From Oscillospiraceae bacterium (GTDB taxonomy: Bacteria; Bacillota; Clostridia; Monoglobales; WRAG01), in the NCBI GenBank assembly GCA_009780345.1, contig WRAG01000022.1, forward strand, positions 1-39,416: 39,416 bases of DNA, in the 5' to 3' direction. Positions 4,201 through 39,416 of the stretch are shown piece after piece (the stretch's first letter is position 1; every line of letters starts with the position of its first letter). Under the pieces are notes generated by a model that searched no databases, was not told where the DNA came from, and saw only the letters and a program-made list of their open reading frames with translations. A program made the translations under genes and the position numbers.

Positions 4201-4580
4201 GTTTTTGCGCCTGCGGGCGCGGAATAGATAAATTTTTCGGGACTGTCCCGAGGGCATTTGCGCGGGCGCGCGCGGCGCGTCAAGGACCAGTCCTTGACAA
4301 TCCAGCATTTGAGACTTCGCTTGTGTGATTTTTCACAAGCGGTAGTCGAAAAGTGCAGGGGCGTAAGATTTTTGTGGTTTTTACAAAAATCCACAGCCAT
4401 CTGCCAAACTTTTGCGCGACAAAAGTTTGATCAAAACCGTCGCCCTCCCCGTTGCGACCCTCCCCGACAAAAAACGTCGGGCGGGTGCCCCGCTAACGGA
4501 GCCGCGGGCGAAAATTAGTGCAAACATAGCACATTCAACCAAACAATATCTCGCGCTTTTAGGCGCGGTACGAATTTCTA
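4201..4580. repeat. Intergenic composite element copy B
   Basis: It begins right after the polC ribosome binding site with the terminal hairpin GCGCCTGCGGGCGC. It then has TCGGGACTGTCCCGA (about 4237-4251) and the perfect stem GTCAAGGAC/GTCCTTGAC (4279-4298). A 99-base nested insertion follows, then the AAACTTTTG..CAAAAGTTT hairpin, the GTCGCCCTCCCC segment, a CGACG..CGTCG stem and the ATATCTCGCGC module. The right-hand terminal repeat is missing. The block ends 10-20 bases before the ispG stop codon. Confidence 0.8.
4307..4405. repeat. Nested insertion module in element B
   Basis: Copy E reads AATCCAGC directly followed by AAGTTTTTG. Copy B has about 99 extra bases at that junction. The extra segment has two hairpins, CTTGTG..CACAAG (about 4320-4339) and GATTTTTGT..ACAAAAATC (about 4366-4391). 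No second copy was seen in this window. Confidence 0.6.
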
Positions 4581-5691: not shown

Positions 5692-6010
5692 TTGCCGCTA
5701 TGGCGGGGTAATATCGTTTTGCCGCTATGGCGGCGGAATTAAAATCGTTTTGCGCCCGGCACGGCGCGGGCTTAAAACCTTATTATGGTATGCCCTAGGG
5801 CATTAAGGTCGTCAAGGGTATTATCGAATACCCTCGACACACCCCGAAAAACTTTTGACGGCAAAAGTTTTATCAAAACCGTCGCCTACTATGTCCGCGA
5901 CCCACGCACAAACCGCGCGGGCACCCCGCTGGACATGAGGGCGACAAGAGTTAGCGAGCCGCATTCGCGGAAGACTAGTGAGATCAGCCACCGGGCTCGT
6001 TTGATAATTT
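5692..6010. repeat. Intergenic composite element copy C
   Basis: The left end has two tandem GTTTTGCCGCTATGGCGG hairpins (about 5690-5735) and the GCGCGGGCTTAAAACC end. Then come TATGCCCTAGGGCAT, the long stem GTCAAGGGTATT/AATACCCTCGAC (5811-5838), CCCCGAAAAACTTTT with its AAAACTTTT/AAAAGTTTT hairpin, the GTCGCC segment, and the GTTAGCGA..GCATTCGCGGAAGAC module. The right-hand terminal repeat is absent. It ends just before the tgt stop codon. This copy has the short, uninterrupted form of the two sites that carry insertions in copies D and F. Confidence 0.8.
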
Positions 6011-9864: not shown

Positions 9865-9980
9865 GGTTGTATTCTCCTTTCGTTAGGGCTTTGCCCTAAA
9901 AATCCATTTTTGCCGCTGAGGCGGCGAGCTTTAAAACCTTATTAAGGTATGCCCTAGGGCAAAAGTTCGTCAAGGGTATT

Positions 9981-10050
9981 AGAACGGCAAAAAGCGCCGT
10001 TGAAACGGCATAATGTAATGCCACGCGCTAAAGCGCGGACTGCCGTTACC
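9981..10050 (+). repeat. Nested 70-base three-hairpin module, copy 1
   Basis: It sits exactly in the loop of the GTCAAGGGTATT/AATACCCTCGAC stem, which in copies C and F has only the four-base loop ATCG. It folds into AACGGC/GCCGTT, GGCAT/ATGCC and CGCGCT/AGCGCG hairpins and ends in GCCGTTACC. A diverged copy lies inverted at 39318-39389, inside a different module. Confidence 0.8.
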
Positions 10051-10091
10051 GAATACCCTCGACACACCCCGAAAAACTTTGACGGCAAAAG

Positions 10092-10165
10092 AAGCTGAAA
10101 CTCCTCGCACAAGACGCTTCGGAGGGCTAAATCTCTAAGCAGTAAACTGCTAAGAGCTTTATGCC
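10092..10165 (+). repeat. Nested 74-base module (AAGCTGAAACTCC type), copy 1
   Basis: It interrupts the GACGGCAAAAGTTTTATCAAAACCGTCGCC stretch seen intact in copy C. It contains CTCC..GGAG and AGCAGT/ACTGCT hairpins and ends in GCTTTATGCC. A nearly identical copy lies inverted at 19762-19836 at the matching position of copy F. Confidence 0.8.
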
Positions 10166-10534
10166 AACCGTCGCCACTATGCCGCCGACCCGCCCAAAAA
10201 GCAGGCGGGTACCCCGTCTGGCATGAGAGCGACAAAAGTTAGCGAACCGCATTCGCGGAAGACTAGCGAGATAATCCGCCGCTTACGTTCGAGCATGCGG
10301 CTTTTGCCGCCGTAGTTACTTAACTGATACGCAGATGTTTGCACATCTTTATAAGCGGCGCGCTTTTAATAGCGCCATAGCGCGTTTGCGCCGCAAGGTT
10401 TTGGTAAAACTTTTTTAAAAGTTTTTCGTGGATTGATAAGGACTTCGATAAGTCCTTATCGCTATGCGGCAGCCGCCGCACAGCCCACAGAGCCTCGCTC
10501 TGAAAAAGAATTTGCCCCGTCGCAGGCGGCAACC

Positions 10535-14035: not shown

Positions 14036-14530
14036 CCGCGTGTTTTTTGCGCCTGCGGGCGCGGGCGTTCATGCCGCTGCTGCGGCAAGCATTGCGCGGT
14101 CGCACGCGGCGAGTTAAGGACCAGTCCTTAACAATCCAGCAAGTTTTTGTGCGTCAAAAACTTGACTAAAACCGTCGCCCTCCCCGACCACAACAAAAAC
14201 CGTTGTGGCGGAACCGCGGGCGAAAGTTACTGCAAACATAGCGCACTCAACCAAACAATATCTCGCGCTTTTAGGCGCGAATCGGTCTCGACTGAAACGG
14301 CATTATATCTCGCTAATCTTTCCGCGAATGCGGTTATCTTGCCCAAATAGCGGCGCGCTTTTAATAGCGCGAAAGCGCGTTTGCGCCGCTTGTTTTGATA
14401 AAACTTTTCAAAAAGTTTTTTGGGGATTGACAAGGGTGTCAATACACCCTTGTCGTCCTGCGCTGACAAGCGCATATGCTACAGCGACTTCGCTGAAAAG
14501 GTTTTAAGCCCGCGCCTGCAGGCGCAAAAA
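14036..14530. repeat. Intergenic composite element copy E (both ends present)
   Basis: About 495 bases with clear inverted ends. The left end has GCGCCTGCGGGCGC, the stem GTTAAGGAC/GTCCTTAAC (14113-14132) and AAGTTTTTG..CAAAAACTT. The right end has AAAACTTTT..AAAAGTTTT, GGGGATTGACAAGG with the perfect 11-base stem GACAAGGGTGT/ACACCCTTGTC (14429-14454), and AAGGTTTTAAGCCCGCG with GCGCCTGCAGGCGC. Between them lie the GTCGCC, ATATCTCGCGC, CGCGAATGCGGTT and GCGGCGCGCTTTTAATAGCGC modules in uninterrupted form. It separates recN from nadK. Confidence 0.85.
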
Positions 14531-18652: not shown

Positions 18653-18679
18653 ATGTTCCTCCGAAAAACACATTAAAAG

Positions 18680-19322
18680 GGGTAGTAATGAGAAGAAATC
18701 TTACGTCTTAGGTTCGGTTGGATTTCCCAAAGGCATACCCCGCGTCGCCGACAAGGGCAGTTTCCTTTTAAACGCCTTTAAGCCATGTCGCCAATGACTT
18801 GACCGAATTACCACTTAGTACGTACTGCAATCTTCTCAATACCTGCATTTTCATGCAACAGTCTAGGAAATTTCTTCATAAGTCACAGATAATTCTTAGT
18901 CTCTTTTGCAAATATGGTTTCAAACAGCAATGACAGCGAACTATAGGTACCGATAGTTTGCTGCCTGTCCGTTATCCTCCGATATCCACCTCAAGACAGG
19001 CTACGCTGCTCACAGCACTCAGCGGCAAAACGCCGCCTTAAAACGTACCGCAAAACAGGTTTCATCCCGCAACGTGCCGGTTTCCCTTTATAAGCGCTAA
19101 GTTCCTCACGGAACTACCTTCTTATAAGAGGTACTCCTGCACTAATACAGGTCTCCACGGAAAAGGGGTCAACGCCCGCATGCCATTGCGGATCGCCCCT
19201 AAACCTTAACCCCCAGCACGCACCCAAAGCTGGGCGCAATAAGCACGCACAAGGGACTTCATCGATATGCCCGACGACGGGTTTTTAGGCTCCGCCTTAG
19301 GATATTACTGTGACTGACTAGA
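18680..19322 (-). ncRNA. ole: OLE RNA (ornate large extremophilic RNA)
   Basis: About 640 bases with no plausible gene. They lie between ispA/DUF212 upstream and oapA-dxs-tlyA downstream on the same strand, which is the known neighbourhood of OLE, a roughly 600-base RNA of mainly anaerobic or extremophilic Firmicutes that joins OapA at the membrane. Local structure seen on the minus strand: CCCG/CGGG (19271-19282); CGCCCA..TGGGTGCG near 19220-19237; CCGCA..TGCGG near 19172-19191; AGTTCC-GTGA-GGAACT (19100-19115); CCTGTC..GACAGG (about 18963-19001); AACTAT..ATAGTT (about 18940-18959); TGCAT-GAAA-ATGCA (about 18843-18856); AAAGGC..GCCTTT; and GAAATC..GATTTC near the 3' end. Ends are approximate. 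No clear promoter was found between it and element F. Confidence 0.9.
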
Positions 19323-19603
19323 ATACTGCACCCCCGTTTTGCGCCTGTCGGCGCGGGTTTAAAAACTATTTCAAGGTATGCCCTGAGGGCATTAAGGTCG
19401 TCAAGGGTATTATCGAATACCCTCGACACACCCCGAAAAACTTTTAAAAAAGTTTTATCAAAACAGGCGACGCACACGCGCTATGGCGCTATTGTGACCG
19501 CGCCGCTATAAAGATGTGCAAACATCTACGTATCAGTTAAGTGCCTACGGCGGCAAAAGCCGCATACTCGACTGAAACAGTGCTATATCTCGCTAGTCTT
19601 TCC

Positions 19604-19670
19604 CGACTCCCGTTGGTCGCTGGATAATTCGACTACAGCTTACAAAATACGCAAGCTAAGTCTCATTTAC
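19604..19670 (+). repeat. Nested 66-base module (CGACTCCCGTTGG type), copy 1
   Basis: It splits the TCTTTCC-GCGAACGCGG junction that is continuous in copies A and E, adding about 66 bases that begin CGACTCCCGTTGGTCGC and end near CTCATTTAC. A copy of about 90 percent identity by eye is at 39203-39269, in the same orientation and at the same junction of copy H. Confidence 0.8.
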
Positions 19671-19761
19671 CGCGAACGCGGTTCGCTAACTTCTGTCGCC
19701 CTCATGCCAGACGGGGCACCCGCCCGTTCTTTGGGTGGGTCGGCGGCATAGTTGCGACGGT

Positions 19762-19836
19762 TGGCATAAAGCTCTTAGCAGTTTACTGCTTAGAGATTTA
19801 GACCTCCGAAGTGCTTTTTGCGAGGAGTTTCAGCTT
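19762..19836 (-). repeat. Nested 74-base module (AAGCTGAAACTCC type), copy 2
   Basis: Inverted near-identical copy of 10092-10165 at the corresponding position of element F, between the CAACCGTCGC segment and CTTTTGCCGTC. The differences are mostly in the CTCC..GGAG loop. Confidence 0.8.
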
Positions 19837-20047
19837 CTTTTGCCGTCAAAGTTTTTCGGGGTTTGTTAAGGGTGTTCGATAACACCCTTGACGACCTTTT
19901 GCCCTAGGGCATACCCTAAATAGGGTTTAAGCCCGCACCGCAAGTGCAAACACCCTAAAAATCATACCACAAACTCCTCAAAACCGCAACCGCATAATAA
20001 AAAATTTACAAAATTTGCAAAATATTTATCTTTTATCGCCATCTCTT

Positions 20048-38677: not shown

Positions 38678-38875
38678 AATAATTTACTAGAGCGATGCCC
38701 TAAAACCCCTTTTTTCGGGTCCGTCCCGAAGGCTTTGCGCGGGCGCGCGCAGCGCGACAAGGACCAGTCCTTGTCAATCCAGCAAGTTTTTGCGCGTCAA
38801 AAACTTGACGAGTGGTAGATTTCATCAAATCGAGCGTCGGCAACAAACGCCTTGCTCTCTTTGGAAATCTTCACA

Positions 38876-38914
38876 GGGGTGACATTAGCGGAAACAAGTT
38901 TCCGATGTCACTCC
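38876..38914. repeat. REP-like hairpin, copy 1
   Basis: GGGTGACAT..GGAAAC-AA-GTTTCC..ATGTCACTCC: a 39-base bulged palindrome. It lies in a segment (about 38810-38913) absent from copy E between CAAAAACTTGA and the CAAAACCGTCGCC segment. Confidence 0.7.
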
Positions 38915-39042
38915 CAAACCGTCGCCCTCCCCGCCGCGACCCTTCCCGACAAAAAGCGTCGGGCGGGTACCCCGCTGGCGGAACCACGGGCGAAAGTTAG
39001 TGCAATCAACGCACCCTAGACAAGTTAGATCTCGCGTTTTTA

Positions 39043-39089
39043 GGGAGTGGCATCCGGATTGGTTTTTTAATCCGGCTAATGCCACCCCT
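39043..39089. repeat. REP-like hairpin, copy 2
   Basis: GGGAGTGGCAT-CCGGATT..AATCCGG-CTAATGCCACCCC. It shares the outer GGAGTGrCAT / CTAATGyCACCCC arms with the hairpin at 38876-38914 in opposite orientation, with a different but self-complementary inner stem. It interrupts the ATCTCGCGTTTTTAGG module. Confidence 0.7.
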
Positions 39090-39202
39090 GCCAAAATCGT
39101 CCAAGAAAACGAGCAGTTTTGTGGCGAAGTTTGATTGGGTACGATTGACGGCTCGCGGGTCGCTCTCAAACGAAAGAAGCGTTATATCTCACTAATCTTT
39201 CC

Positions 39203-39269
39203 CGACTCCCGTTGGTCGCTGGATAACTCGACTACAGCTTGCACAATACGCAAACTAAGTCTCGTTTAC
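39203..39269 (+). repeat. Nested 66-base module (CGACTCCCGTTGG type), copy 2
   Basis: Same module and junction as 19604-19670, with a handful of substitutions (for example GATAACTCG against GATAATTCG). It is followed by the CGCGAATGCGGTTCGCTAAC end. Confidence 0.8.
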
Positions 39270-39317
39270 CGCGAATGCGGTTCGCTAACCCAAATAGCGG
39301 CACGTTTTTGATAGCGC

Positions 39318-39389
39318 AGGTAACGGCGGCCTTCGCCGCAGGCGAATGGCAATTACTTTACGCCGTTTTGACAGCGGTTTTTGCTGTCC
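39318..39389 (-). repeat. Nested 70-base three-hairpin module, copy 2
   Basis: Inverted, diverged copy of 9981-10050. On the minus strand it folds into GACAGC/GCTGTC, GGC..GCC and TTCGCC/GGCGAA hairpins and ends GCCGTTACC. It is inserted in the loop between TAGCGC and AAGCGCG, a different host stem from copy 1. Confidence 0.78.
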
Positions 39390-39416
39390 AAGCGCGTTTG
39401 TGCCGCAAAGTTTTGA

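Follow-up and report, generated by a model that had tools for sequence, protein, structure and literature searches.

A 68-nucleotide double-hairpin module probably gained repeatedly at one junction of an intergenic repeat family in a transposase-poor Oscillospiraceae genome

A 68-nt module, termed F1, occupies a single junction of a larger intergenic repeat family in about 42 places in one genome of an Oscillospiraceae bacterium. F1 is most plausibly a non-autonomous double-hairpin insertion unit, which would have entered this junction many times, mobilised in trans by an enzyme that has been lost, is absent from the assembly or has gone unrecognised (probability of roughly 0.58). The module was recognised in the window, that is, the whole 39,416-nt contig WRAG01000022.1 (C22), which belongs to a 2.05 Mb assembly of 59 contigs that is 96% complete. 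All genome comparisons are based on stretches fetched around the repeat copies.

F1 is present twice in the window, at 19604-19671 and 39203-39270, both on the plus strand and 93% identical to each other. A 24-nt probe taken from the start of F1 matches the window at these two copies only, even when 3 mismatches are tolerated, against 0 matches expected by chance from 100 dinucleotide shuffles of the window. The first-pass annotation had placed two highly similar modules of about 66 bases at 19604-19670 and 39203-39269; both places are correct, but comparison with the empty site gives an insert of 68 nt (69 nt in a second subtype) that ends one base further. The sequence is TCTTTCC|GCGAA at an empty junction and TCTTTCC-CGACTC...TTTACC-GCGAA at a filled one. 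Because CC is common to both ends, the placement is ambiguous by 2 nt, and the insert can be written as CGACTC...TTTACC at 19604-19671 or, equivalently, as CCCGACTC...TTTA at 19602-19669.

Both window modules belong to the 68-nt subtype (CCCGTTGG). They interrupt composite host repeats: copy F (19360-19990), which also contains a nested F5 module at about 19771-19835, and copy H (38716-39416), which is truncated by the contig end and carries a 104-nt F6 module from about 38810. A complete OLE RNA (RF01071, 431 bits; 18663-19350, minus strand) immediately adjoins copy F. Copies A (1-270, truncated by the contig start) and E (14085-14500) had been described as keeping the junction whole, and indeed the intact sequence CTARTCTTTCCGCGAAYGCGG is found in them at 59-79 and 14313-14333. 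Two host repeats in reverse orientation, at 5750-6010 and 9920-10530, are also empty, with one T fewer at the junction (near 5971 and 10258, respectively). The latter, which includes F7 (68 nt) near 9978 and F5 near 10086, aligns with copy F on both arms (91% identity over 214 nt and 94% over 65 nt) and lacks F1. It is therefore a clean empty-site partner for copy F, and the best one.

Throughout the genome, 107 empty junctions (at most 2 mismatches) and about 50 matches to the F1 core were detected, with no match in the backwards controls of either search. About 145 host copies were read and one spurious match was dropped; after removal of duplicates, 42 filled and 102 empty copies remained (~144 in total). 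The two occurrences first noted are all that the window holds, out of about 42 genome-wide. In 42 of 42 filled copies F1 lies at the identical base and in the identical orientation, always as a single insert of 68 or 69 nt and never in tandem. The two subtypes are equally frequent (21 copies each) and differ chiefly in hairpin 1 (CCCGTTGG or CGCTTACG). Nearly all host copies (138/144) lie outside open frames of at least 130 aa, in both orientations relative to genes, a placement more in keeping with mobile intergenic repeats than with a cis-regulator. The filled junctions are expected to be reliable in this fragmented assembly, because the 68-nt module is shorter than an ordinary read.

Because one genome offers 42 filled and about 100 empty examples of the same junction, independent movement can be tested statistically against hitchhiking. 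Without F1 itself, trees were built from three data sets: 93 right arms, 24 of them from filled copies; 69 left arms, 17 from filled copies; and the combined arms of 46 copies, of which 12 are filled. The grouping of all interrupted copies into one recent clade, which had been named as the outcome that would speak against repeated insertion, was rejected on all three (p-AU 2.4e-58, 0.003 and 3.9e-7, respectively). State changes numbered 23, 15 and 11 on these trees, the level obtained with shuffled labels; the trees are built on short, mosaic stretches, and they count changes of either kind, gain and loss being indistinguishable on them. Filled copies were not enriched among the flank neighbours of filled copies (nearest-neighbour tests, p 0.46-0.83), and none of 46 junction-adjacent host positions was linked to filled status at p < 0.02. 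Every main type of left arm and of right arm includes copies filled by F1. The left-arm types of filled and empty copies differ somewhat (chi-square p 0.018), because unclassified left flanks are commoner in filled copies. Similarity among F1 copies bears no relation to the left arm (p 0.82) and is weakly linked with the right one (r 0.15, p 0.004), while the two arms are themselves almost unlinked (r 0.08-0.11). The weak right-arm linkage shows some copying of interrupted elements as a unit, as a minor process. Since the single clade is rejected and filled status is random on the trees, by neighbours and by junction bases, recurrent gain, and not clonal spread, is favoured as the main process; a history of exchange among host copies, or of repeated precise loss, would look the same. 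Of the two options first raised, site-specific insertion and spread of an interrupted version, repeated gain accordingly stands as the main process, with the qualifications that exchange and precise loss fit the same pattern and that the F1 family is not confined to this junction.

Diverged relatives of F1, which share the core CTGGATAATTCGACTAC-[stem]-AAGTCTCATTTA, occur at other junctions. Five loci (L084, L095, L097, L098, L099) carry them at a second junction, J2 (CACAAACG|CAAAAAGCGCG), and two (L030, L092) at a third, J3 (GGTTT|TCACAGGGG), which lies within another module family. Two more are located in unrelated places (L100, L101), one of them adjoining an apparent tRNA gene. Empty counterparts of J1, the principal junction, and of J2 and J3 define a common insert, CCCGACTC...CATTTA, without target duplication. 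A longer relative, F2 (92-99 nt), occupies a further junction; its window copy (4305-4405, minus strand) has a GACTAC-stem-AAGTCTCA core at 4310-4350. These diverged relatives imply that F1 is mobile in its own right. In all, at least seven recurrent nested module families (F1 and F2 to F7; 64 to 110 nt, no target duplication) emerged from the comparison of all fetched copies (window 4255-39416 and L030-L169). Three of them, F3, F4 and F6 (103-110 nt; L099:538-641, L154:829 on the minus strand, and window 38809-38912), apparently have one architecture, with conserved linkers and with stems that differ by compensatory changes, as judged by eye. J2 is used by both F3 and F1 (L168 near 562; L098 near 680), so several modules can share a target site.

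The J1 copies share one type of hairpin 2, distinct from those of the J2 and J3 copies, and the donors of F1 at J1 seem, from this likeness, to have been other J1 copies for the most part. The same result would follow from exchange among host copies, and F1 could have entered J1 once or a few times and then been passed on by short-tract gene conversion or recombination, with no enzyme of its own. The conserved core around the junction would provide homology for such exchange, and the near absence of linkage between left arm, F1 and right arm indicates that the repeats are heavily shuffled anyway. However, co-conversion from a few founders should mark the flanking bases, none of which is associated with filled status, and the relatives at the non-homologous J2, J3, L100 and L101 would require insertion without that homology. 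Exchange is considered a less likely alternative to insertion.

Excision of IS200/IS605-type elements is precise. The host repeat could have carried F1 originally and most copies could have lost it precisely, a history that the trees, on which only changes are counted, would not tell from gain. This appears improbable, since filled copies are in the minority (42/144), empty sites bear no footprint, and the clean empty counterparts of the relatives at other junctions indicate that insertion does occur.

F1 folds as two hairpins on both strands. In copy F, hairpin 1 (CGAC...GTCG, 4-bp stem) spans 19604-19619, where other copies have CGCTTACGCTCA, and hairpin 2 (GACT(AC)AGCTT...AAGCT(A)AGTC) spans 19631-19662, preceded by the conserved CTGGATAATTC and followed by TCATTTA. 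Hairpin 2 covaries: among 45 distinct variants, counted with a strict pattern, 96.5% of stem cells are canonical, against a mean of 73% and a maximum of 79% in shuffles. The minus-strand RNA folds better than shuffles (z -2.7) and shows tandem G.A pairs next to hairpin 2. The resemblance of several junctions to hairpin loops of other modules prompted the idea that loops are targeted. Among 60 junctions, however, the unpaired probability was 0.273 against a background of 0.280 (p 0.31) and helix interruption 0.492 against 0.497 (p 0.94), and loop targeting was rejected. So was a hammerhead or k-turn-like RNA: by eye the hammerhead's conserved core residues are missing, and no Rfam family fits.

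Covariation and the minus-strand fold would both suit a host repeat that is a conserved structured RNA or regulatory element, with F1 as an optional functional domain under selection. This is very improbable: the elements have no Rfam match, they lie in both orientations in all kinds of gene neighbourhood, and their junctions neither avoid helices nor prefer loops. Moreover, the covariation of hairpin 2 may reflect either selection on structure or correction of imperfect palindromes by intra-strand template switching. Spread by copying from a single interrupted host element is scarcely credible as the main process, and clearly not the answer to how F1 moved, given the three trees and the randomness of filled status, even if a few pairs share flank and F1 (e.g., copy F with L073, for the right arm) and the right-arm linkage (p 0.004) leans that way.

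As an insertion unit, F1 would target TCTTT|CCGCGAAYGCGG in the host family, inserting there with precision, always in the same orientation and with no duplication of the target. It would have entered or re-entered J1 many separate times, on many combinations of host arms, and would presumably have moved as DNA by means of a trans-acting enzyme. A single-strand HUH (IS200/IS605-like) mechanism would fit F1 best, because there is no target duplication, there are no terminal inverted repeats (the ends are CCCGACTC and CTCATTTA) and the hairpins are close to the ends; a matching transposase was not found, and membership is not claimed. The only Y1 (IS200-type) transposase gene in the genome (L170:1411-1938, minus strand) contains an in-frame TAA. 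By eye, no F1-like ends surround it and it is not flanked by these repeats, in an assembly that is 96% complete. DDE_Tnp_1 and rve domains had no match in the genome, and the IS110 domain matched below the cut-off only. Bridge-RNA insertion of the IS110 type with a core dinucleotide was set aside, as CC is present at J1 and not at J2 and no IS110 gene exceeds the cut-off. A group II intron or reverse transcriptase origin was likewise discarded, since nothing evident ties the genome's one intron to the modules. That intron (RF02004) lies at L186:514-721 and 1186-2121, and its reverse transcriptase frame runs to the end of the stretch fetched around it.

Short nested bacterial repeats are usually put down to an insertion sequence transposase acting in trans; here transposases are almost lacking, and copy number and recurrent site occupancy are nevertheless very high. 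PATEs, the non-autonomous relatives of IS200/IS605, resemble F1 in their fixed orientation, end-proximal hairpins and lack of both target duplication and terminal inverted repeats (PMC7290912, PMC3119063). In contrast to PATEs, F1 has no intact Y1 transposase with matching ends and is very short at 68 nt. Insertion 3' of a fixed tetra- or pentanucleotide, another PATE trait, is not demonstrated; the bases 5' of the insertion are TTT| at J1, J3 and a fourth context but ACG| at J2. F1 also differs from REP/RAYT systems, as the sole Y1 gene is IS200-like, broken and, by eye, not flanked by these repeats, and from classical MITEs, in having neither terminal inverted repeats nor target duplication.

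Nesting of short repeats has been reported for the pneumococcal BOX, RUP and SPRITE elements, which are likewise high-copy intergenic stem-loop repeats with nested families and an optional internal module, boxB in BOX (PMC3049150). However, boxB forms tandem arrays, whereas F1 is single, never tandem and also present at unrelated junctions, and the host repeat has no fixed end modules, its left and right arms being variable. RUP targets TA and has IS630 as its proposed source (PMC2229807), while no source is visible for F1. The Correia/NEMIS elements of Neisseria also come in two size classes, distinguished by an internal segment of about 50 bp (PMC2229807); compared by description, they differ in being delimited by 26-bp inverted repeats (PMC3049150), of which there are none here.

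A further likeness is to mitochondrial double-hairpin elements and yeast GC clusters, tiny hairpin units that merge and shuffle into composite palindromic clusters (PMC4478555, citing Paquin et al., 2000). The yeast cluster GC42 is marked by an AG target signature (PMC4478555). As in these elements, F1 has two hairpins and conserved linkers and nests in elements like itself, which is an analogy only; they are organellar, whereas the present elements, which form seven or more module families, reside in a bacterial chromosome. Those families might, speculatively, be a bacterial counterpart of the mitochondrial elements: mutually nesting double-hairpin units, each with sites of its own in the others, where it would insert without target duplication through an unrecognised enzyme or process.

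F1 was absent from 59 relatives (one chance match with 2 mismatches), from 50 genomes of the order and 390 of the class, and from the viral contigs, plasmids and phages searched. An exact scan of GTDB contigs, which possibly did not include the genome itself, returned no record, and no description of this repeat family was found in the literature searched. PolC is at best about 54% identical to that of named Clostridiaceae/Eubacteriales assemblies, so the genome represents a deep uncultured lineage. An active strain or relative, if found, would be a good system for studying how double-hairpin repeats spread in a transposase-poor genome. Many contigs start or end in these repeats (C22, C13, C20, C23, C30, C31, C33, C36, C42, C46, C56, C57), which are probably what breaks the assembly.
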